NCBI GenBank assembly: GCA_018650085.1
Contig: JABIGQ010000035.1
Location: forward strand, 1-41,053
DNA length: 41,053 nt
Reading direction: 5' to 3'
DNA from: Candidatus Magasanikiibacteriota bacterium
GTDB taxonomy: Bacteria; Patescibacteriota; Patescibacteriia; Magasanikbacterales; UBA922
The notes beneath the pieces are model-generated. The model did no database searches. It was not told the origin of the DNA and saw only the letters and a program-made list of their open reading frames with translations. Made by a program: the position numbers and the translations under genes. Positions 3,804 through 20,213 of this stretch are shown piece by piece. The first letter of the stretch is position 1. Every line of letters starts with the position of its first letter.

Positions 3804-6800
3804 ATGAATATGAAAAGGTTTCTTTTTACTTTTATTGTGTTAGGGGTGTTTTTATTTCTCCCAAGAATTTCGCATGCAGCGTCAAATATTTCATCTTGTA
3901 ATATTACAGCAACGGATACTGCTATAAGTTCCTCAGAAAATGAAGTAGTGTTTACTGTTAATTATCTTACTTTTGATCCTGTTATTGTAGATTATCATGA
4001 AAAATTAGCTATAGATAGAAAAGGAGAATTAGATACTATTCATGAAGTATCAGCAAGTGATGTGCTTCTTCCAATAGGGGCTGGTTCATATAGAAAGAAT
4101 TATTCTGTAATATATGAAAAAGGTACTGCATTAAACATGGTATTGGAAGCTCAAATAGGGGATACTGAATGTAAGACACTGGCACTTCCTCTATCTACAT
4201 TTGGTGCAGCGTCAAATGTAGATATAAGTAGTTGTTATGTAGAAGCTACAGACAGTGTTTCTAGTGATACGCATAATGATATTTCATATAATGTTATGTA
4301 TACAAATGCAGGGGCTGTAGATACGGAGGATTATTCTATAAATATAAAAACAGATAAACTAAAAGATCTCACATCTTATTTAGCCAATACTGAATTTTTA
4401 GAGGGGAAAAATTTATTATTTAGTACAGCAAGTGATCTTTCATATAGGCGAGATGAGGTAACATCTTTTGTTGTATCTGCATCTATAGGGGAAACACAGT
4501 GTAGTCCGAAAACAGTTATTACGAGACAACCAGTATCATCTTGTCTTGTAGATTTTCCAAGGATGAATAATGTATCGCAAGGAGTATGGGATCTATCTTA
4601 TACGGTGATGTATTCAAAAGTTGGAGATGAAGGAGTAGATTTTCGAGAAACAGTAGGTGTGGATGGACATGGATTATATCAAAATAATACAGAATCTGGG
4701 TACCCTTTGATAAATGGTGTAGATAATATAACAGCAGAAAGGACCGTTCGATTTGAAAACTCTTTTTTTAATATTATAGATGATGCGCAATTACCAGTGA
4801 GCCTTGATGTATATCTTGGTGGATTTAAATGTGATGGAATAGATATTCCTAGGGAATTATTTCAACAGGCTGAGGAAGAAGTAGTTGTGCATACTCTTCC
4901 AGAACCAGAGGATCCAGATGTTGAACCAGAACAAAGTAATATACAACCAGTGTCATCTTGTTTTGTTTCTGTACAGGTTAAAAATGTAGCTAATGAAGAT
5001 GCAGGAAGATTAGATCTTAGGTATACTGTGAGATATTCAAAAGTTGGGGATGAAGAAGTAGAGTTTAGAGAAATTTTAGGTGTGGATGATTATGCAATAG
5101 ATCAGAATAATGTAGAATCGGGGTACCCTTTGATTGATGGTGTAGATAATATAACAGCAGAAAGAACAGTTCGGTTTGATAGTGTTTTTTTTAATTTTAT
5201 AGATGACGCACAAGCGCCACTTAGTCTGGATGTATATTTAGGTGGATTTAAATGTAATGGAGCAAATATTCCTAGGGAAGTATTTCCACAGTCTGAAGAT
5301 GATATAGAAGTTCCAGATCCTGTAGAATCAGTAGAGGAAAATAATGATGACCCAGATGATGAAGAGGATGTACCAGTTGTAGAGATGTTACAAGTCGATA
5401 TGGAACCAGTATCATCTTGTGCTGTAAGTATAATAGATGGGGCTATAGTAAATGCAGAAAAGAATTCTATTAGTTATCTTGTAACATATTCTAAAATAGG
5501 GAGTGAATATCTAGGATATGGAGAAATAGTTGGAATAATGAATGGAACTGAATTGCCACTATATATAGGTGGGCAAGATAGTTATTATGTGCGTAAGGGA
5601 GATAATAATACACTGCCAAAAAGAACAATAATTTTTAAAAGAGGCACAATGGATTACTCTGCAGGGGAGCCTATTACTGTGGCAGTAGCTATAGGTGGTG
5701 TGGAGTGTGCAGTAGATACTATTTCTAGAGAAACATATTTTATTCCAGAATTAGTACAAGAAAATGAAGTTATAGAAGCTGCCCCAGTAGAAATTTCAAA
5801 TGAGTCTCCAGAATCTTGTCGTGTAAAAGGACGCGATCTCATTTATGATGGGAAACAAAATAAAATAGAATTTCATATTGAATATACCAAATTGGGAGGT
5901 GTCTCTGAAGTCCCATATTCTTACAGTATTATCTCAGATTCAGAGCATGTATTACATGAAGAGATTAAAGACAAACAGTTTTTAATGAAAGGAGCAGATA
6001 TTTCTTTGAATAATCAAAAATTTTATTATCCACGAGAAAATAAAAATAATACTTTGATAAAGGCAAGTTTAGGAAATACAACTTGTGAATCTTTGGATTT
6101 GCGTGTATCTCAACCAATTGTGGTGGATGATATAGAGATTCAAGAAAATGGTGATGTAGGTGATCCAGAACAATTAGAAGGTGAGCCTGAACCACTTCCT
6201 GTTGAGATGATGGGATTAGAAGAAGGAGGAGAACAAGAAGAAGCCCCAGCAGCAGAAGAACAGGTGGCAGAGGTTGTGGAAAATCCATTTGCGGAGGCAC
6301 CACCAGTAGAAGAAGCTGTGGACAATGGGGACGCTCCAATAGGCAATGGTAGTAGTTCTTCTGGCAGTGGTTCTCGAGTTGTGGTTTCAACTGGCGACTC
6401 TGGTAATAATCCTGTGGTAGATACTGAAGATCCTACATGTAGAGTTGTAGCAGAGGGTAGAGTAGTAAATGGACATCTTGAAATTGGTTCTGGTATAGAA
6501 TATAGAAATTTTGAAGATGGAGATTATCAGTATGTATTAAGTGGTAGTTCACTTATTTCACCAAACAATGGAAAAATATATCAAGGAAATATTAGTTTTA
6601 CAAATGATTCTGGAATGATTATTCGTGTGGTAAATAATGCGAGTTTTCCAATGTCTTTTCAATCTGATAATGCAGAGGATGTATTTGTGCTTAATGCAGT
6701 GTTAAATGGAGTAACGTGTCAATCAGTATCATTTGATTATACTCAAATAAATGATGCTATTGAAACAGCGACAGTAGCCAATGGAAGTACTACTGATACT

Positions 6801-7088
6801 ATAGGACCAGGAGTTGCAGTATCTTCTATATCAGTTATTCCAGCAGGTATTGACGAAAGTGATGTTTCTGCGTTACTATCATTGGAGTTGTTAGACGGAG
6901 AAACTATAAATAGAAGGATTCGTTTTACTGGTTTCCCTGTACCAAAGAGTGTCGCTATGACAAAAGAAAAGAGTAATAATATATTTATTCTTATCGCGGT
7001 TTTAGCACTTGTTGGATTAGGATCTGTAGGTTACGGATTGTATCGTCTAAAGAAAAGAAAAAAACACAGTTTTATCCCATATGAATAA
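3804..7088 (+). CDS. Large membrane-anchored surface protein with repeated Cys-pair modules
   Basis: A 1,094-residue exported protein. A signal peptide (MKRFLFTFIVLGVFLFLPRISHA) is followed by about seven related modules of 100-120 residues beginning near residues 31, 140, 245, 384, 537, 669 and 877. Each opens with a Cys in a pattern like SSCxV, has a central strand such as ISYxVxYSKxG, and closes with a second Cys in a pattern like LGGxxC. One disulfide per beta-sandwich module is a plausible reading. Modules 3 and 4 are a recent duplication. Acidic Pro/Glu-rich linkers separate the later modules; the longest (about 785-870) ends in a Ser/Gly run. A membrane helix (about 1057-1078) and a basic tail (LKKRKKHSF) anchor the C-terminus; there is no LPXTG motif. 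It overlaps metG by 8 bp. The last module is clearly related to that of the protein at 11771-13396. I cannot name the family; adhesion or surface-layer roles are guesses. A second possible start lies 6 bp downstream at 3810. Confidence 0.9.
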   Translation: MNMKRFLFTFIVLGVFLFLPRISHAASNISSCNITATDTAISSSENEVVFTVNYLTFDPVIVDYHEKLAIDRKGELDTIHEVSASDVLLPIGAGSYRKNYSVIYEKGTALNMVLEAQIGDTECKTLALPLSTFGAASNVDISSCYVEATDSVSSDTHNDISYNVMYTNAGAVDTEDYSINIKTDKLKDLTSYLANTEFLEGKNLLFSTASDLSYRRDEVTSFVVSASIGETQCSPKTVITRQPVSSCLVDFPRMNNVSQGVWDLSYTVMYSKVGDEGVDFRETVGVDGHGLYQNNTESGYPLINGVDNITAERTVRFENSFFNIIDDAQLPVSLDVYLGGFKCDGIDIPRELFQQAEEEVVVHTLPEPEDPDVEPEQSNIQPVSSCFVSVQVKNVANEDAGRLDLRYTVRYSKVGDEEVEFREILGVDDYAIDQNNVESGYPLIDGVDNITAERTVRFDSVFFNFIDDAQAPLSLDVYLGGFKCNGANIPREVFPQSEDDIEVPDPVESVEENNDDPDDEEDVPVVEMLQVDMEPVSSCAVSIIDGAIVNAEKNSISYLVTYSKIGSEYLGYGEIVGIMNGTELPLYIGGQDSYYVRKGDNNTLPKRTIIFKRGTMDYSAGEPITVAVAIGGVECAVDTISRETYFIPELVQENEVIEAAPVEISNESPESCRVKGRDLIYDGKQNKIEFHIEYTKLGGVSEVPYSYSIISDSEHVLHEEIKDKQFLMKGADISLNNQKFYYPRENKNNTLIKASLGNTTCESLDLRVSQPIVVDDIEIQENGDVGDPEQLEGEPEPLPVEMMGLEEGGEQEEAPAAEEQVAEVVENPFAEAPPVEEAVDNGDAPIGNGSSSSGSGSRVVVSTGDSGNNPVVDTEDPTCRVVAEGRVVNGHLEIGSGIEYRNFEDGDYQYVLSGSSLISPNNGKIYQGNISFTNDSGMIIRVVNNASFPMSFQSDNAEDVFVLNAVLNGVTCQSVSFDYTQINDAIETATVANGSTTDTIGPGVAVSSISVIPAGIDESDVSALLSLELLDGETINRRIRFTGFPVPKSVAMTKEKSNNIFILIAVLALVGLGSVGYGLYRLKKRKKHSFIPYE

Positions 7089-11690: not shown

Positions 11691-11720
11691 AGTATAAGAT
11701 ATATATGTGTAAGTTGTCAA
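11691..11720 (-). promoter_or_regulatory. Promoter of the small membrane protein
   Basis: Read on the minus strand: TTGACA (11720-11715), an 18-bp spacer, and TATACT (11696-11691). The -35 box is a perfect consensus and overlaps by five bases the -35 box of the plus-strand promoter. Confidence 0.75.
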
Positions 11721-11742
11721 TTATTATTAATTTTAGTATACT
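11714..11742 (+). promoter_or_regulatory. Promoter of the second surface protein
   Basis: TTGTCA (11714-11719), a 17-bp spacer and TATACT (11737-11742). Each box matches the sigma70 consensus at five of six positions. The predicted start is near 11749, giving a leader of about 22 nt before the ATG at 11771. Confidence 0.75.
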
Positions 11743-11770
11743 AATAGTATATTTATTAAATAAAATATTT

Positions 11771-13396
11771 ATGAAGAATTTTTTCATTGTATTATGTACG
11801 TTTTTATTATTACCCTCAATAGTACACGCAGCGCCTGCTACTAATTATGGATGTAGGGTAGAAGGAAATCTAGAAGAAATTGAAGGAGGAAAAAATCGAT
11901 TATATACAGCAATAAGTTATACGCTTGATAGTGGTGATGTATATGATATCCCATTTAGTATTTCTATGCAGACAAATAGTGGATCATTGGGATCTTATAG
12001 TGGAGAAGTAGATTTATATTATACAGGTGAATCAGTAAATCAATTTGATAGAACTGAAATAAATAGAAGTTTAGTAAGTCCATTGTATCAAGGAGAAGCG
12101 ATTTTAACACCAGAGTTTTCTATACAGGGAAATTCGTCTGTTCAAATAGGCGCTTCTCTAAATGGAATTACATGTACACCACTTATTTTAGAAGTGGTAG
12201 AAGAAGATGTCATTATAGAATGTTTTGCAGAGGGTGCATTAGAATTATTAGATTCGGGTGATAATAGATTGCAGTATTCTCTCATGTATGATGTCTCAGA
12301 AGATAAAGATAATGTGCCATTTTTTATTGAAGTGGTAAATAATGCAGGAAGATTTGATAGTAAAAGTGGTACAGATTCACTTTATGCGGATGCTCAGCTT
12401 GTTGTGTTGTATCAAGGTAACCCTGTACAAATGGTTACTATTCCAGCAGTGATAGATGGAAATATTTCTATAGAAGCCACACTGGGAGGAAAAACTTGTG
12501 ATACAAAACAGCTTACCTTGTTAGAATTACCAGAAGAATTAATTATAGAAGAAATAGAACCGTTGGTAGAAGAACAACCACCTGTAGAACCTCTTGTAGA
12601 AGAAGAATCTGATCCTATCGTAGAAGTACCGCCGATTGTGGAAGAGGAACAGCCAGTGGTTATGGCTGAACCAGAACCGTTACCAGTTGTTGTGGAAGAT
12701 CCAGCTCCAGTGGTGGCAGTGGTTTCTTCTCCGTTTGCTTCTCCAAATGTTCCGCAGACAGTTACTACAGATAATGAAACATCTACAACTGTTTCACCTT
12801 CGTGTACTGTAGTTGCAGAAGGGCAAGTACAAGAAAATGGTAGTATTTTATTAGGGAATGCAATTACCTTTAAAGATTTTGATTTAGGAGAGCATAGTTA
12901 TAGATTAATTGGTTATTCTGAAAATGATAGTTTTGATCAGACACAGTTCATGGATCAGATACAATTTGTAGATACACAAGGGGTATTAATGCAGACAAAC
13001 GCAGTGACTGCTAGTTTCCCAATGATATTTATGCCAAAACAAGCAAATGAGACATTTGTGATTAATGCAATAATTGATGATGTGGTATGTAAATCGGTTA
13101 TGTTTGTCTCTTCTCCTATGATGAATGTTACAGAACTAATTACTGTGTTTCCAAAGGGGACTTCCCAAGAAGTCACAGCAGATGTGCATTCTTTGGCGCT
13201 TATTTCTTCAAATGATAAGGGATTGGCTGAAGATACGGAACCAGTTGTCCGTAATGTAGAATCATCTTCAGAGCTTAGTTCAACCCAGTTTATGGTTATT
13301 ATCATTGTCTCAATTATCTCTGTAGTATTTCTTGCCTTGGTTGGTATGCTTTCTTATGTAAAACTAAAGAAAAAACAGTCAGATTTTTTAAGATAA
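11771..13396 (+). CDS. Membrane-anchored modular surface protein, paralog of 3804-7088
   Basis: A 541-residue exported protein. A signal peptide (MKNFFIVLCTFLLLPSIVHA) is followed by two Cys-pair modules (about residues 28-150 and 155-255), a long acidic Pro/Val/Glu linker (about 257-335), a third module starting at PSCTVVAEGQV (about 345-450), a short stalk and a C-terminal membrane helix (about 507-530) with a basic tail (KLKKKQSDFLR). The third module aligns with the last module of the 1,094-residue protein (PTCRVVAEGRV), and the overall order of signal, modules, acidic linker, module and anchor is the same. The start at 11771 is chosen because it opens on the signal peptide and fits the promoter; the frame extends 22 codons further upstream. 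Function unknown; a cell-surface role is inferred from the architecture. Confidence 0.9.
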   Translation: MKNFFIVLCTFLLLPSIVHAAPATNYGCRVEGNLEEIEGGKNRLYTAISYTLDSGDVYDIPFSISMQTNSGSLGSYSGEVDLYYTGESVNQFDRTEINRSLVSPLYQGEAILTPEFSIQGNSSVQIGASLNGITCTPLILEVVEEDVIIECFAEGALELLDSGDNRLQYSLMYDVSEDKDNVPFFIEVVNNAGRFDSKSGTDSLYADAQLVVLYQGNPVQMVTIPAVIDGNISIEATLGGKTCDTKQLTLLELPEELIIEEIEPLVEEQPPVEPLVEEESDPIVEVPPIVEEEQPVVMAEPEPLPVVVEDPAPVVAVVSSPFASPNVPQTVTTDNETSTTVSPSCTVVAEGQVQENGSILLGNAITFKDFDLGEHSYRLIGYSENDSFDQTQFMDQIQFVDTQGVLMQTNAVTASFPMIFMPKQANETFVINAIIDDVVCKSVMFVSSPMMNVTELITVFPKGTSQEVTADVHSLALISSNDKGLAEDTEPVVRNVESSSELSSTQFMVIIIVSIISVVFLALVGMLSYVKLKKKQSDFLR

Positions 13397-13562: not shown

Positions 13563-13871
13563 ATGAATAAGTTAGAACAAAAACGAGAAGAACTCGTTCA
13601 CAAAACATTTACATCCATGTTTAAGATTTTAATAATCTTTGGCATTCCTGCAGCAATTGGTTTTTTTGTAGGAAGTTTCGTAGACGCGAAATATGATATT
13701 CGTCCGTATGGATCTGTGGGTGTACTCGCGGTCACATTTATTTTATCTTGGATTATTATGATTCGGATGTATCTAAATATAACGAAACAGTTTAGTGCAT
13801 TACGAGAACAAGAAAATGCAGAGCGTAATATTACACAGAAAATGCTAAAAGATAATATTTCTTCTAAATAA
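13563..13871 (+). CDS. atpZ: AtpZ/AtpI-like membrane protein of the ATP synthase operon
   Basis: A 102-residue protein with two membrane helices (about residues 20-40 and 52-72) and a charged helical C-terminus. The position as first gene of the operon and the two-helix layout with GFFVGSFVDAKY between them match the AtpZ/AtpI group, which helps assemble the c-ring and is proposed to handle Mg2+ or Ca2+. AtpI and AtpZ are hard to tell apart at this length, so the symbol is tentative. It ends 10 bp before the a subunit. Confidence 0.75.
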   Translation: MNKLEQKREELVHKTFTSMFKILIIFGIPAAIGFFVGSFVDAKYDIRPYGSVGVLAVTFILSWIIMIRMYLNITKQFSALREQENAERNITQKMLKDNISSK

Positions 13872-13881
13872 AGATATAGTT

Positions 13882-14673
13882 ATGAGTTTTCAAGTGGCTG
13901 TAGCACAACCAGAAGTACAACCAGAAGCTGTATTTGCGATTGGGAATTTTGTGGTATCAAATGCTATGATGATGAGTGTAGTTGTTACATTCATTTTTTT
14001 ATTTTTGAGTGTCGGTTTTATTCGTAAATCAAAACTTGTTCCATCTATATTTCAAACAATGTTTGAATTATTGGTAGATGGAATATTAGGTTTACTTGAA
14101 TCCATCATGGGGAATAGAAAAGGAGCAGAAAAGATGTTGCCATTGATTGGGTCATTATTTCTATTTGTAGGATTATCAAATGTGATAGCGTTGTTTCCAG
14201 GGGTAACATCATTTACATATGATGGAGTACAGATGTTTAGAACACCTACAAATGATTTCAATACTACGTTTAGTATTGCACTTGCCATGATAATATTGAC
14301 GCAAATTGCAAGTATGAAAGAGTTTGGTATCTTTGGGCATTTAGGAAAGTATTTCAAGTTTAAGGATGTTGTGGTAGGATTTAAGAAAGGTGCCGGAGAA
14401 GGAGTACTTGCTATAGTAGACTTTTTGATTGGATTGTTAGATATTGTGTCAGAAATCGCAAAAGTTATTTCATTGTCCCTTCGTTTATTTGGGAATATGT
14501 ATGCCGGAGAAGTATTAGCAGCTATCCTACTTGGGACATTTGCAATGTTTATTCCAGCACCATGGTTAGCAATGAATTTACTGGTAGGATTACTCCAAGC
14601 ATTAGTATTTGGGTCATTGACCGCAGCATACTATGCATTGGCAATAGAGAAATCAGAAGAACAAATTAATTAA
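13882..14673 (+). CDS. atpB: ATP synthase Fo subunit a
   Basis: The membrane stator subunit that forms the ion half-channels beside the c-ring. This 263-residue protein has five to six hydrophobic segments. It includes the conserved SLSLRLFGNMYAGEV in the fourth helix region, whose Arg (about residue 201) is the essential stator Arg (Arg210 in E. coli). The final hairpin has LLVGLLQALVFGSLTAAYYALAIE with the conserved Gln. The N-terminal 25 residues, with Gln, Pro and Val, are probably outside the membrane. It lies between atpZ and atpE with short spacers. Confidence 0.95.
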   Translation: MSFQVAVAQPEVQPEAVFAIGNFVVSNAMMMSVVVTFIFLFLSVGFIRKSKLVPSIFQTMFELLVDGILGLLESIMGNRKGAEKMLPLIGSLFLFVGLSNVIALFPGVTSFTYDGVQMFRTPTNDFNTTFSIALAMIILTQIASMKEFGIFGHLGKYFKFKDVVVGFKKGAGEGVLAIVDFLIGLLDIVSEIAKVISLSLRLFGNMYAGEVLAAILLGTFAMFIPAPWLAMNLLVGLLQALVFGSLTAAYYALAIEKSEEQIN

Positions 14674-14700
14674 TTTAGATATATATTTAATTATACGTAT

Positions 14701-14916
14701 ATGGATATTGAAGTAGCGCGACTTATCGCAAAAGGACTTTGTACCACATCTATGTTTGGATCTGGTATTGGTGAAGGATACCTTATTGGTAAAGCACTAG
14801 AAGCAATTGGGCGTAACCCAAAGATGGAAGGAAGCATTTTTAGTAAAATGATCATCGGTGTTGCTCTAGCAGAATCTACTGCGATTTACGCATTTGTAGC
14901 ATTCTTTATTGTATAA
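14701..14916 (+). CDS. atpE: ATP synthase Fo subunit c with two-carboxylate ion site
   Basis: A 71-residue two-helix hairpin that forms the rotor ring. The polar loop is GRNP (residues 37-40). The ion-binding Glu58 lies in the second helix in the context ALAESTAIY. Ser59 and Tyr63 correspond to Ser66 and Tyr70 of the Na+-binding Ilyobacter ring. In helix 1 the sequence GIGEGY puts Glu25 where Ilyobacter has Gln32 (the 33-residue spacing between the two sites is identical). A second Glu at that place defines the two-carboxylate Na+ rotor described for Fusobacterium nucleatum. Coupling to Na+ rather than H+ is therefore a reasonable prediction, but it rests on these residues alone. The gene is followed by a 90-bp structured spacer, the longest gap inside the operon. 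Confidence 0.95.
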   Translation: MDIEVARLIAKGLCTTSMFGSGIGEGYLIGKALEAIGRNPKMEGSIFSKMIIGVALAESTAIYAFVAFFIV

Positions 14917-14990
14917 TACCATTTTAATGGTATAAGCTATTGTTTTAGCTTCGGTGTATATGTGTATATACACCAACTGGTAAAACAATA
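14917..14990 (+). promoter_or_regulatory. Structured intercistronic RNA between atpE and atpF
   Basis: Two hairpins follow the atpE stop directly. The first is TACCATT (14917-14923) with AATGGTA (14926-14932). The second has an outer stem TATTGTTTTA (14938-14947) with TAAAACAATA (14981-14990) and an inner stem GGTGTATAT (14953-14961) with ATATACACC (14966-14974) around a 4-nt loop. There is no T-tract, so this is not a typical terminator. It could stabilise the upstream message or set how much b is made relative to c. Confidence 0.7.
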
Positions 14991-15006
14991 ATTAGTTAAT
15001 TGTCAT

Positions 15007-15513
15007 ATGGATTATATTTTGGACACATTAGGGAAAGTAGGATTTGAATGGAAAATGGGATTATTTAATTTTTTAAATTTTCTTGTTGTATTTTTGATAT
15101 TAAAAAAATACGCGTTTAAACCAATTACAAAAGTAATAGCAGAACGCCAGAAAAAAGCAGAAGACACTGTTGAAAATTTTCAAAAAGCAAAGTCTGAATT
15201 ACAAATGGCAGAACAAAAAGCACAAACATTAATAGATGAAGCAAAAGTAGAAGCAAATAGAACAATAGAAAAATCTCATGAGACAGCGCAAGCACAAGCA
15301 GTTGATATGAAAGAAAAAGCAAAAGCAGAGATTGAATCACTTATTGTACAGGCAAAAAAGAATATTGCTATAGATAGATTAGAAATGCAAGATTCACTTC
15401 GAACGGAGACAGTTGAGTTAGTAATAAAAGTAGTAGAAAAAATTGTTGGAAATAAATTAGACAATGCTACTGATGATGCATATATTAAAGATGTTCTTGC
15501 AACATTGAAATAA
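15007..15513 (+). CDS. atpF: ATP synthase Fo subunit b
   Basis: The peripheral stalk subunit. This 168-residue protein has one N-terminal membrane helix (about residues 16-34, MGLFNFLNFLVVFLILKK) and a long charged coiled coil rich in Ala, Lys, Glu and Gln (about 40-150). It starts after the hairpin-bearing spacer and ends 6 bp before atpH. Only one b gene is present, so the stalk is presumably a homodimer. Confidence 0.93.
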   Translation: MDYILDTLGKVGFEWKMGLFNFLNFLVVFLILKKYAFKPITKVIAERQKKAEDTVENFQKAKSELQMAEQKAQTLIDEAKVEANRTIEKSHETAQAQAVDMKEKAKAEIESLIVQAKKNIAIDRLEMQDSLRTETVELVIKVVEKIVGNKLDNATDDAYIKDVLATLK

Positions 15514-15519
15514 TAGATT

Positions 15520-15909
15520 ATGCCTAAATTAATCCCAAAACAATACGGAAAAATTTTATACGACATTACTTACGGAAAAGATGGGGAAGAGTTGGATAAG
15601 GCTCTTTCTATATTTGCAACATTTTTACGAAAAGAACAAGTCTTGTCAAAATTACAATATATTGTAGAAGAATATATTGCATATGGAAAAGAAAAAGAAG
15701 GAATAGTTTCACTGCATGTTACAAGTGCACGAGAACTTTCAAAGGAAATGATAGGAAATATTGAACAAGCATTTGAAAGAAAAGCAGAAATAACACAATC
15801 CGTAGATAAGGAACTTATAGGTGGATTAGTCGTAAAAGCAGGAGATACGATTTTAGATGGAAGTGTACAAACACAATTAAAACAATTAAAACAACATTTA
15901 AGCAATTAA
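15520..15909 (+). CDS. atpH: ATP synthase F1 subunit delta, shortened form
   Basis: The subunit that joins the peripheral stalk to the top of F1. At 129 residues it is about 50 shorter than the usual 175-180. The C-terminal signature is intact ([26 protein letters not shown]). The N-terminal start ([15 protein letters not shown]) resembles helix 1 of the normal helical domain. By comparison with the E. coli protein, the missing stretch corresponds to the middle helices of the N-terminal bundle that contacts the alpha subunits. No frameshift is visible, so this looks like a genuine compact version. Confidence 0.9.
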
Positions 15910-15919
15910 TTATCTGGTT

Positions 15920-17413
15920 ATGTCATATACAGATCAAGTGGTCGCAACATTAAAAAAACATATTGATTCTTTTGAAAAACAAGTTGATGTACAAGAAGTA
16001 GGTACTGTTATTGAGATTGGTGATGGTATTGCTCGTATGACTGGATTGTCTCAATGTAAGGCACAAGAGATGCTTGAATTCCCAGGTGGAGTATATGGTT
16101 TAGCATTGAATTTGGAAGAAGAAACAGTGGGTGCTATTATTTTAGGAGATTATAGAGCAATTAAAGAAGGAGATACTGTAAAAAGAACTGGACGTATTAT
16201 GTCTATCCCAGTGGGAGATGCTATGATTGGGCGTGTAGTAAATGCACTTGGAATAGAAATAGATGGAAAAGGAGATTTAAAAACAAAAGAATTTTATCCT
16301 ATAGAACGTGTTGCGCCGGGTGTTATGACACGTGAGCCAGTGAATCGTCCTATGCAAACAGGAATAAAGGCTATTGATGCGATTATCCCAATTGGACGTG
16401 GACAGCGTGAACTTATTATTGGAGATAGACAAACTGGAAAAACAGCGATTGCAATTGACGCAATTATAAACCAAAAAGGACAAGACATGGTTTGTGTGTA
16501 TGTAGCTGTGGGGCAAAAAGACTCAAAAGTAGCTCGTATAGTATCAAAACTTGAAGAAGCCGGAGCAATGGATTATACAGTGGTAGTTTCTGCTGGAGCT
16601 TCTGAACCAGCGCCTATGTCTTATTTAGCACCGTATGCTGGTGTGACTATTGCAGAATATTTTGCAGATAAAGGAAAAGATGTATTGATAGTATATGATG
16701 ATCTTACAAAACAAGCATGGGCTTATCGTGAGATGAGTTTGCTTCTTCGTCGTCCACCAGGCCGAGAGGCTTATCCTGGAGATGTATTTTATCTTCATTC
16801 ACGTTTACTTGAACGAGCATGTAATTTAAATGAAAAGCATGGTGGTGGTTCTATTACAGCATTACCTATTATTGAAACACAAGCAAGTGATATTTCAGCA
16901 TATATTCCTACCAATGTAATTTCTATTACAGATGGACAGATTTTTCTTGAAACAGACTTGTTTTATAAAGGAATTCGCCCAGCGTTGAATGTAGGACTTT
17001 CTGTATCTCGTGTAGGTGGATCAGCACAGATTAAACCAATGAAAAAAGTAGCAGGAAGTATGAAATTGGATCTTGCGCAGTTTCGTGAATTGGAAGCATT
17101 TTCACAATTTAGTAGTGATTTAGATGCAGATACAAAACAAAGTATTGATCGTGGCCAAAGAATTACTGAAATGTTAAAACAAGGACAATATTCACCATTG
17201 TCAGTGGAAGAACAAGTTATTTCTATTTATGCTGCAGGAAAGGGTTATTTTGATGATGTAGATGTGTCACGTGTAAGGGAAGTAGAAGAAAAATTACTTG
17301 ATTTTGCTAAAAAAGCAAAAGCTTCATTACTTGGAAAAATAAAAGCTGGTGATTGGAGTGATGAAACACAAGCAGCAGTAAAAGAGTTATGCGAAGAATT
17401 TAAAAAACAGTAA
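15920..17413 (+). CDS. atpA: ATP synthase F1 subunit alpha
   Basis: The non-catalytic nucleotide-binding subunit of the F1 head. It has 497 residues, about the usual length. It shows the N-terminal beta barrel ([16 protein letters not shown]), the P-loop GDRQTGKT (residues 168-175), the [10 protein letters not shown] strand, and [16 protein letters not shown] (about 360-375) with the Arg that reaches into the neighbouring catalytic site. It follows atpH by 10 bp and precedes atpG by 10 bp, in the standard order of bacterial operons. Confidence 0.98.
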
Positions 17414-17423
17414 GCTGTAAAAT

Positions 17424-18383
17424 ATGGCACTGAGTACCAAAGCAATTAAAACAAGGATTAAATCGGTAAAAAATACCAAGAAGATCACCAAAGCAATGGA
17501 GATGGTTTCAGCTTCAAAAATGAGAAAAGCAGTTGACGCTGCTCTAAACACTCGTATGTATGCTACTCTTGCTTCTGAGCTTCTAGAACATCTTTCTGGT
17601 ATAGATGAACCAAATATCCCATTACTCGAAAAAAGACCTATAAAAAAGGTGCTCATGGTTTTGATTTCTTCAAACAGAGGACTCTGTGGTGGATTTAATG
17701 GAAATATTTTAAGAAAATCTGTAGAATTATTTAAAGATAAAGAAGATCTAGCAACGCATAAAATAAAAAGTGGAGAAGAAGCGATTGACGTGTTAGAAGA
17801 TGTAGAAGTGGAAGTACTAGGTATTGGAAAAAAGAGTGCTGCATTTGCAAAAAAGTATGACTTACCACTTATCGCTGTATTTGATGAGCTGTCAGAAGCG
17901 CCATCATTTGAAGACATATTACCTATTAGTAATATGATCAATAATAGTTACCTTGATAAAACATATGATAAAGTAGTTATTGTCTATACTCATTTTCAAT
18001 CAAGCTTGGTCCAAACAGTAAAAGTACGCCAAGCATTGCCAGTAACAAATAGTGAGATTGAAGAGATGATTGCAGATGTATCAAAGGATACTGATAAAGA
18101 AAAAAAAGAAGATTCATTTCCTATTGAACAATATATTTTTGAACCAGGGCTTGATAGTATTATAGAGCATGTGATGCCGCGATTAGTTGAAATTCAATTG
18201 TATCAAGCAATATTAGAATCGGCTGCAAGTGAACATAGTGCTAGAATGCTTGCCATGAAAAATGCAAGTGAATCAGCAGATGATATGGTCAATTCACTTA
18301 CCCTTGCGTTTAATAAAGCTAGACAAGCTGCAATTACTCAAGAAATTGCAGAAATTTCTGGAGGAGCCGCAGCGCTTGAATAA
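17424..18383 (+). CDS. atpG: ATP synthase F1 subunit gamma
   Basis: The central rotor shaft. The N-terminal helix (IKTRIKSVKNTKKITKAMEMVSASKMRKA) and C-terminal helix (ARMLAMKNASESADDMVNSL followed by LAFNKARQAAITQEIAEI) are typical and form the coiled coil inside the alpha-beta hexamer. The Rossmann-like middle holds SSNRGLCGGFNGN. At 319 residues it is about 30 longer than the E. coli protein; the extra length is mostly in the charged stretches at about residues 105-135 and 215-235 (DVSKDTDKEKKEDS). Confidence 0.96.
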   Translation: MALSTKAIKTRIKSVKNTKKITKAMEMVSASKMRKAVDAALNTRMYATLASELLEHLSGIDEPNIPLLEKRPIKKVLMVLISSNRGLCGGFNGNILRKSVELFKDKEDLATHKIKSGEEAIDVLEDVEVEVLGIGKKSAAFAKKYDLPLIAVFDELSEAPSFEDILPISNMINNSYLDKTYDKVVIVYTHFQSSLVQTVKVRQALPVTNSEIEEMIADVSKDTDKEKKEDSFPIEQYIFEPGLDSIIEHVMPRLVEIQLYQAILESAASEHSARMLAMKNASESADDMVNSLTLAFNKARQAAITQEIAEISGGAAALE

Positions 18384-18410
18384 TCAATTAATGAATAAAC
18401 TCATAAATAA

Positions 18411-19796
<1,386 letters not shown>

Positions 19797-19805
19797 TATT
19801 TTTTT

Positions 19806-20213
19806 ATGATGCCATTTAACATTGTGACACCAGAGGGCGTTATCTATAAAGATGATGTACTAAAAGTAACGGTGCCTACAGAGGCAGGGGAAGTTACTAT
19901 TTTAGAAAATCACGCACCAATGGTATCTATATTAAAAGCAGGAGAATTGCATATTTATAAAGATGATCAAATCATATCTATGGCGGTATCTACTGGGTTT
20001 ATTGAAATTCGTCCTACAGGAGAGTTGTATATTATTGCAGATACTGCAGAGCGTGCAACTGATATTGATATAGAGCGTGCAGAGACTGCAAAAAAACGTG
20101 CAGAAGAGTTATTAAAACAACAACAAGATATTAACGATATTGACTTTGCTCGTATTCAAGCAAGTTTAGAAAGAGCGATTACTCGTATAGGAGTAGGGAA
20201 TACGTATAAATAG
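19806..20213 (+). CDS. atpC: ATP synthase F1 subunit epsilon
   Basis: A 135-residue protein with the N-terminal beta sandwich (FNIVTPEGVIYKDDV, GEVTILENHAPMVSIL, STGFIEIRP) and a C-terminal helical hairpin rich in Ala, Glu and Arg (about 88-130). The C-terminal helices can regulate ATP hydrolysis in related enzymes. It closes the operon, followed 20 bp later by a strong terminator. Confidence 0.94.
   Translation: MMPFNIVTPEGVIYKDDVLKVTVPTEAGEVTILENHAPMVSILKAGELHIYKDDQIISMAVSTGFIEIRPTGELYIIADTAERATDIDIERAETAKKRAEELLKQQQDINDIDFARIQASLERAITRIGVGNTYK

Follow-up and report, generated by a model that had tools for sequence, protein, structure and literature searches.

The window analysed here, a stretch of 41,053 nucleotides (contig JABIGQ010000035.1) from a Candidatus Magasanikiibacteriota bacterium of the order Magasanikbacterales, carries a complete atp operon in the order I-a-c-b-delta-alpha-gamma-beta-epsilon (13563-20213), and Pfam matches to all eight of a, c, b, delta, alpha, gamma, beta and epsilon place its product among the F-type ATP synthases. 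The gene of chief interest, atpE (14701..14916, +), encodes the c subunit of the rotor ring, a protein of 71 residues (MDIEVARLIAKGLCTTSMFGSGIGEGYLIGKALEAIGRNPKMEGSIFSKMIIGVALAESTAIYAFVAFFIV) that is matched by Pfam ATP-synt_C (E 2e-16), and it is the sole c gene found in a 1.0-Mb genome whose completeness is stated as 100%. We consider it probable that the operon specifies a Na+-coupled F1Fo-ATPase that mostly hydrolyses ATP and in which an exchangeable membrane module sits under a conserved F1.

An earlier note on this DNA had held that Glu25, Glu58, Ser59 and Tyr63 of the c subunit match the ion site of Na+-driven rotors position for position and with the same 33-residue spacing. Both points were borne out by gapless alignments to the solved rings of Fusobacterium nucleatum (3zk1, E 3.9e-14) and Ilyobacter tartaricus (1yce, E 8e-13), in which the spacing is exact and Glu25 is equivalent to Glu/Gln32, Glu58 to Glu65, Ser59 to Ser66, Thr60 to Thr67 and Tyr63 to Tyr70, with Leu56 at the place of Val63, a residue that contributes a backbone carbonyl only. 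The residues listed in that note were all correct but Thr60, the counterpart of the water ligand Thr67, had been omitted; all side-chain ligands of the solved F. nucleatum site (Glu25, Glu58, Ser59, Thr60 and Tyr63) are present. The complete-ligand rule for Na+-type F-ATPases names Glu or Gln at 32, Glu at 65, Ser or Thr at 66, a polar residue at 67 and Tyr at 70 (Mulkidjanian 2008, PMC2359735; ProAD, PMC11738941), and the c subunit has a suitable residue at each of these positions. A helix-1 Glu opposite the conserved Glu, together with Ser, Thr and Tyr, is also what characterises the two-carboxylate Na+ rotor of the F. nucleatum type. The note had taken the helix-1 Glu as the marker of that variant; the set is indeed present, but the Glu alone is undiagnostic, as a two-carboxylate ring in Burkholderia pseudomallei is H+-specific (PMC5376962). 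No H+ ring with the complete Glu/Glu/Ser/Thr/Tyr set, the case sought as a counterexample, was found in the literature examined.

Among the known systems the closest likeness is to the Na+ F1Fo-ATP synthase of F. nucleatum (c11 ring, 3zk1/3zk2; PMC3692424), with which the window's ring shares, besides the site, the GxGxGxG packing motif of helix 1 and about 49% identity over the aligned hairpin. The motif is compatible with an 11-subunit ring. The two systems differ in that the F1 is of a different lineage and the window's genome is without a decarboxylase pump. The Na+ site of the I. tartaricus c11 ring (1yce/2wgm) is likewise alike position for position, although it has Gln32 where the window has Glu25. 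The Gln form occurs in some Patescibacteria (L198, L210), the rest of the site being identical, and this fits a constitutively protonated Glu25. By analogy with the solved Fusobacterium ring, one Na+ would be bound at each site between adjacent c subunits; its ligands would be Glu58, Ser59, Glu25 in protonated form, a carbonyl of the backbone and a water molecule that Thr60 holds in place, and Tyr63 would lock Glu58. The ring is thus predicted, on the grounds of its sequence, to be a Na+-type rotor; the full ligand set, the relatives with Gln25 and a subunit a that differs in step all speak for the Na+ coupling proposed before.

Subunit a provides an independent hint of Na+ type. At the position of E. 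coli His245, Glu is found in each of the 30 H+-type Patescibacteria modules examined, and one of Asn, Ser, Gly and Ala in each of the 55 of Na+ type; at the position of E. coli Glu196, Glu is found in 29 of the 30 and Asp in 51 of the 55. Since a and c travel together, the 85 modules amount to a single historical association rather than to as many independent ones. The window has Asn at the first of these positions, where Fusobacterium mortiferum (L192) has Asp.

Table 1. Features of the atp operon in the window
Feature	Position	Strand	Basis and remarks
atpI-like membrane protein, 102 aa	13563..13871	+	No Pfam match; tree follows ion type, hence in exchanged module
atpB, subunit a (263 aa)	13882..14673	+	Pfam; stator Arg201 present; Asn232 at E. 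coli His245 position; Asp187 at E. coli Glu196 position
atpE, rotor ring c subunit, predicted Na+-type, two carboxylates	14701..14916	+	Intact 71-codon ORF; Pfam ATP-synt_C; ring alignments
Glu25 codon (=Glu/Gln32), helix 1 second carboxylate	14773..14775	+	Alignment to solved rings
Codons Glu58, Ser59, Thr60 ... Tyr63 (=Glu65, Ser66, Thr67, Tyr70)	14872..14889	+	Alignment to solved rings
Two predicted RNA hairpins between c and b	14916..14990	+	-26.9 kcal/mol, z -3.8 vs shuffles
atpF, subunit b	15007..15513	+	Pfam; residues ~1-55 like other orders' Na+-type, ~60-168 like own order's H+-type
atpH, delta, F1 side of module border	15520..15909	+	Pfam; identity comparison
atpA, alpha	15920..17413	+	Pfam; trees
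atpG, gamma	17424..18383	+	Pfam; identity comparison
atpD, beta	18417..19796	+	Pfam; trees
atpC, epsilon	19806..20213	+	Pfam

Evidence for an exchange of the membrane part came from a comparison of an F1 tree (alpha and beta, the order being represented by 13 Na+ and 7 H+ rows) with an Fo tree (a, c and b). In the F1 tree the order's 13 Na+ and 7 H+ enzymes fall into one clade (support 100/99) with four changes of type, and the F1 data reject all H+ enzymes as one clade in the approximately unbiased (AU) test (p 0.00011). The Fo tree shows a single Na+/H+ split (support 100/99), and the Fo data reject the order as one clade with a log-likelihood difference of 465 (AU p 7.5e-30). The same split is recovered from a alone (support 99) and, with weak support (62), from c after removal of the ion-site columns, and the tree of the atpI-like protein follows ion type. 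Mean identities agree: the order's Na+ and H+ enzymes are 35% identical in a, 40% in c, 72% in alpha and 81% in beta, and the order's Na+ enzymes compared with those of other orders 45%, 66%, 64% and 77% respectively. As F1 groups both types while Fo splits by ion, the membrane module has been exchanged under a conserved F1. The border probably runs through b, the identity profile of which flips near residues 45-60, the first 55 residues grouping with the ion type and those past about 60 with the order; for the first half of b the order as a clade is rejected (AU p 0.018). Going by the gene trees, the piece exchanged comprises atpI-a-c together with the membrane half of b or more.

This piece has, as the gene trees show, a history of its own. 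Na+ and H+ modules have replaced each other within the atp operon of the order, presumably by homologous exchange; the genes for delta, alpha, gamma and beta were kept through the swaps, as was, probably, the outer part of b. Several relatives, of Na+ and of H+ type alike, share the upstream neighbours metG, cvpA and tatD, so that in these genomes the swaps appear confined to the operon. The ordinary H+ F-ATPase of most Patescibacteria (L123-L151) has the same operon order and, within the order, belongs to the same F1 clade, but it differs in a c site of the form I..F-E-A-I..Y, in Glu at position 245 of a and in its separate Fo clade.

Of some 98 Patescibacteria c genes surveyed, nine had the full E..E-S-T..Y set and three had Ser59 with Leu or Asn at 60, the rest being H+-like and mostly of the I..F-E-A-I..Y form. 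A c gene is present in 80 of 86 genomes of the window's order; 14 full-length genes, to which one fragment is to be added, are 79-100% identical to that of the window and the others at most 54%. Those of the latter group that were read are H+-type, except for the extra Na+ module of G358. Named relatives with a c subunit 79-94% identical are mostly Ca. Magasanikbacteria. Both ion types occur within the same families and within one genus (G353 Na+, G354-G357 H+).

The tandem arrangement of the two kinds of module was found twice. At L258:4736-9031 (G358, of the window's family) a Na+-type and then an H+-type Fo module precede a single F1, in the order tatD - I - a(Na) - c(Na) - b(Na) - a(H) - c(H) - b(H) - delta - alpha - gamma - beta - epsilon. 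At L274:5035-9684 (G535, of another family of the class) the H+-type module comes before the Na+-type: metG - cvpA - tatD - I - a(H) - c(H) - b(H) - I - a(Na) - c(Na) - b(Na) - delta - alpha - gamma - beta - epsilon. The two events are independent because the Na+ modules sit in different Na+ lineages of the Fo tree. Operons of this kind would be the expected intermediate of a swap. The two b subunits of L258 are, in their C-terminal parts, 34-39% identical to the order's b and 22-26% to that of outsiders, as is expected if both dock on the same F1. It is possible, although we propose this only tentatively, that in both loci two complete motors, one for Na+ and one for H+, are expressed from one operon and that the single F1 docks on either, thereby coupling the gradients of Na+ and H+ with each other and with ATP; in that case the window's enzyme would represent this exchangeable system in its Na+ form with one motor.

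Other departures from the single-ring arrangement were also seen. One genome (G572; L270 and L271) has a Na+-type ATP synthase operon and, apart from it, an H+-type one. L269 (G417) has tandem c genes (minus-strand ORFs at 2065 and 2302), the second of which lacks both carboxylates, with Thr at 25 and Gly at 58 (...MAVTGTTGIY...); a mixed ring with such ion-free subunits would alter the ion-to-ATP ratio. Two tandem H+-type c genes of differing sequence lie in one operon of G199 (L283/L304). The c subunit of L282 (G536), which has Gln in its first helix and E-S-L-V-I-Y in its second, comes from a genome that also has an H+-type ring and possibly belongs to another ATPase type.

The source of the Na+ gradient had been left open in the earlier note and is now narrowed. 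Pumps were sought family by family with positive controls included, and these searches of the window's genome found no membrane pyrophosphatase (PF03030), Mrp/complex-I-type subunit (PF00361), NqrB/RnfD (PF03116), heme-copper oxidase (PF00115) or decarboxylase beta subunit (PF03977). As the primary Na+ and H+ pumps searched for are absent, hydrolysis of ATP to make a Na+ gradient is likelier than synthesis, and ATP-driven Na+ export appears the likeliest role. The enzyme would mostly hydrolyse ATP obtained by fermentation or scavenging, expelling Na+ and energising the membrane of an organism (Ca. Magasanikbacteria, with a small genome) that is probably host-dependent. A membrane pyrophosphatase as the Na+ source is rejected for this genome; that of a genome of the same genus (G114, L250) scores 505 bits against solved H+-PPases and 475 bits against the Thermotoga Na+-PPase, too close to assign an ion. 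Antiporters were rejected as a marker of ion type, PF00999 being present with both.

Two other readings concern the ion and the direction. The ring could be H+-coupled despite its Na+-like site, its Na+ affinity being too low at physiological Na+ and pH. The precedent is the N-type c17 ring of B. pseudomallei (Glu30/Glu61/Tyr66), H+-specific against the prediction from its sequence (PMC5376962), which has two carboxylates and Tyr in common with the window's ring. We think this unlikely, since that ring has Thr62-Met63 where Ser59-Thr60 here match the Na+-bound F. nucleatum ligands, and since Na+ is the better fit both for the occasional Gln at 25 and for a position a-245 that has lost its acidic residue in every Na+-type module of Patescibacteria. 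Nor is the enzyme an N-ATPase, a group defined by the lack of a delta gene, the presence of atpR and the order beta-epsilon-I-R-a-c-b-alpha-gamma (PMC4154653); the window's operon has delta, no atpR and a different gene order. Coupling to Na+ might instead serve mainly ATP synthesis from a Na+ gradient of the environment or host. The operon is complete and its catalytic subunits are normal, and for bacteria of the candidate phyla radiation (CPR) synthesis from an externally supplied H+ gradient has been suggested, then discussed and doubted in a study in which Na+ was considered and rejected for Vampirococcus (PMC8080830). Given the absence of the searched pump families, and an inward Na+ flux that a free-standing cell could not sustain without an export route, this too seems improbable.

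As to history, vertical inheritance with repeated point changes at the c ion site and no exchange of modules has in its favour that c is short and that few positions set the ion type. It is barely credible beside the observation that ion type is followed, well beyond the site, by a over its full length (263 aa), by atpI and by the membrane half of b, beside the 465 log units by which a, c and b together reject the order as one clade, and beside a split in c that persists, if weakly supported, without the site columns; independent point mutation of the site is rejected by the a and b trees. Assembly chimerism of the tandem operons could be entertained as L258 and L274 are both metagenome assemblies. 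It is nevertheless very unlikely: neither locus contains Ns, all frames and key residues are intact, the flank cvpA-tatD is common (with metG in L274), and the two lie in different families with opposite module order and a b of its own in each module. Several points do weigh against a Na+-driven, mostly hydrolysing enzyme with an exchangeable module. Ion specificity and direction are predictions, the genomes compared are metagenome assemblies, and the window's genome also encodes one Ca2+-type P-ATPase and one KefB/KefC-like antiporter. The trees were built with LG+G4 and not with mixture models, and the link between the a and c signatures is a single split on the Fo tree rather than many independent co-changes. 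With the F1 data, a single clade of the 13 Na+ rows is not rejected (p 0.152) and one of the 7 H+ rows is rejected only weakly (p 0.038); how many swaps took place inside the order, and in which direction, is therefore not fixed by them. For the C-terminal part of b, trees that keep the order together and trees that follow ion type have similar scores, and the second half does not reject the order as a clade; the exact crossover is therefore uncertain.

Ion types have been predicted across GTDB with the complete-ligand rule (ProAD, 2025; PMC11738941), and this resource may already list individual Na+ assignments for Patescibacteria. A literature search, with subscription journals and preprints outside its scope, found no report of Na+ ATP synthases, ion-type Fo exchange or a double-Fo operon in Patescibacteria. 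In the Na+-first view of early bioenergetics, predicted ion types were placed on a tree of the catalytic subunit, and from the scatter of Na+ enzymes on it the Na+ ligands were concluded to have been lost many times (Mulkidjanian 2008, PMC2359735). Should F1 be conserved while the membrane module below it is exchangeable, such scatter is expected without repeated losses, and a, c and b are the subunits in which the history of the ion has to be traced. A concrete answer also emerges for those CPR bacteria with an ATPase but without a respiratory chain, in that some are predicted to run on Na+, and the tandem operons make the question of one F1 and two ions testable.

Two further features of the window may be mentioned. 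The predicted RNA hairpins between c and b may aid in setting the high stoichiometry of c. Upstream of the operon, at 3804-7088 and 11705-13396, two large proteins are encoded that are predicted to be secreted or located at the surface; they are related in make-up, with repeated Cys-containing units and a single C-terminal membrane helix.
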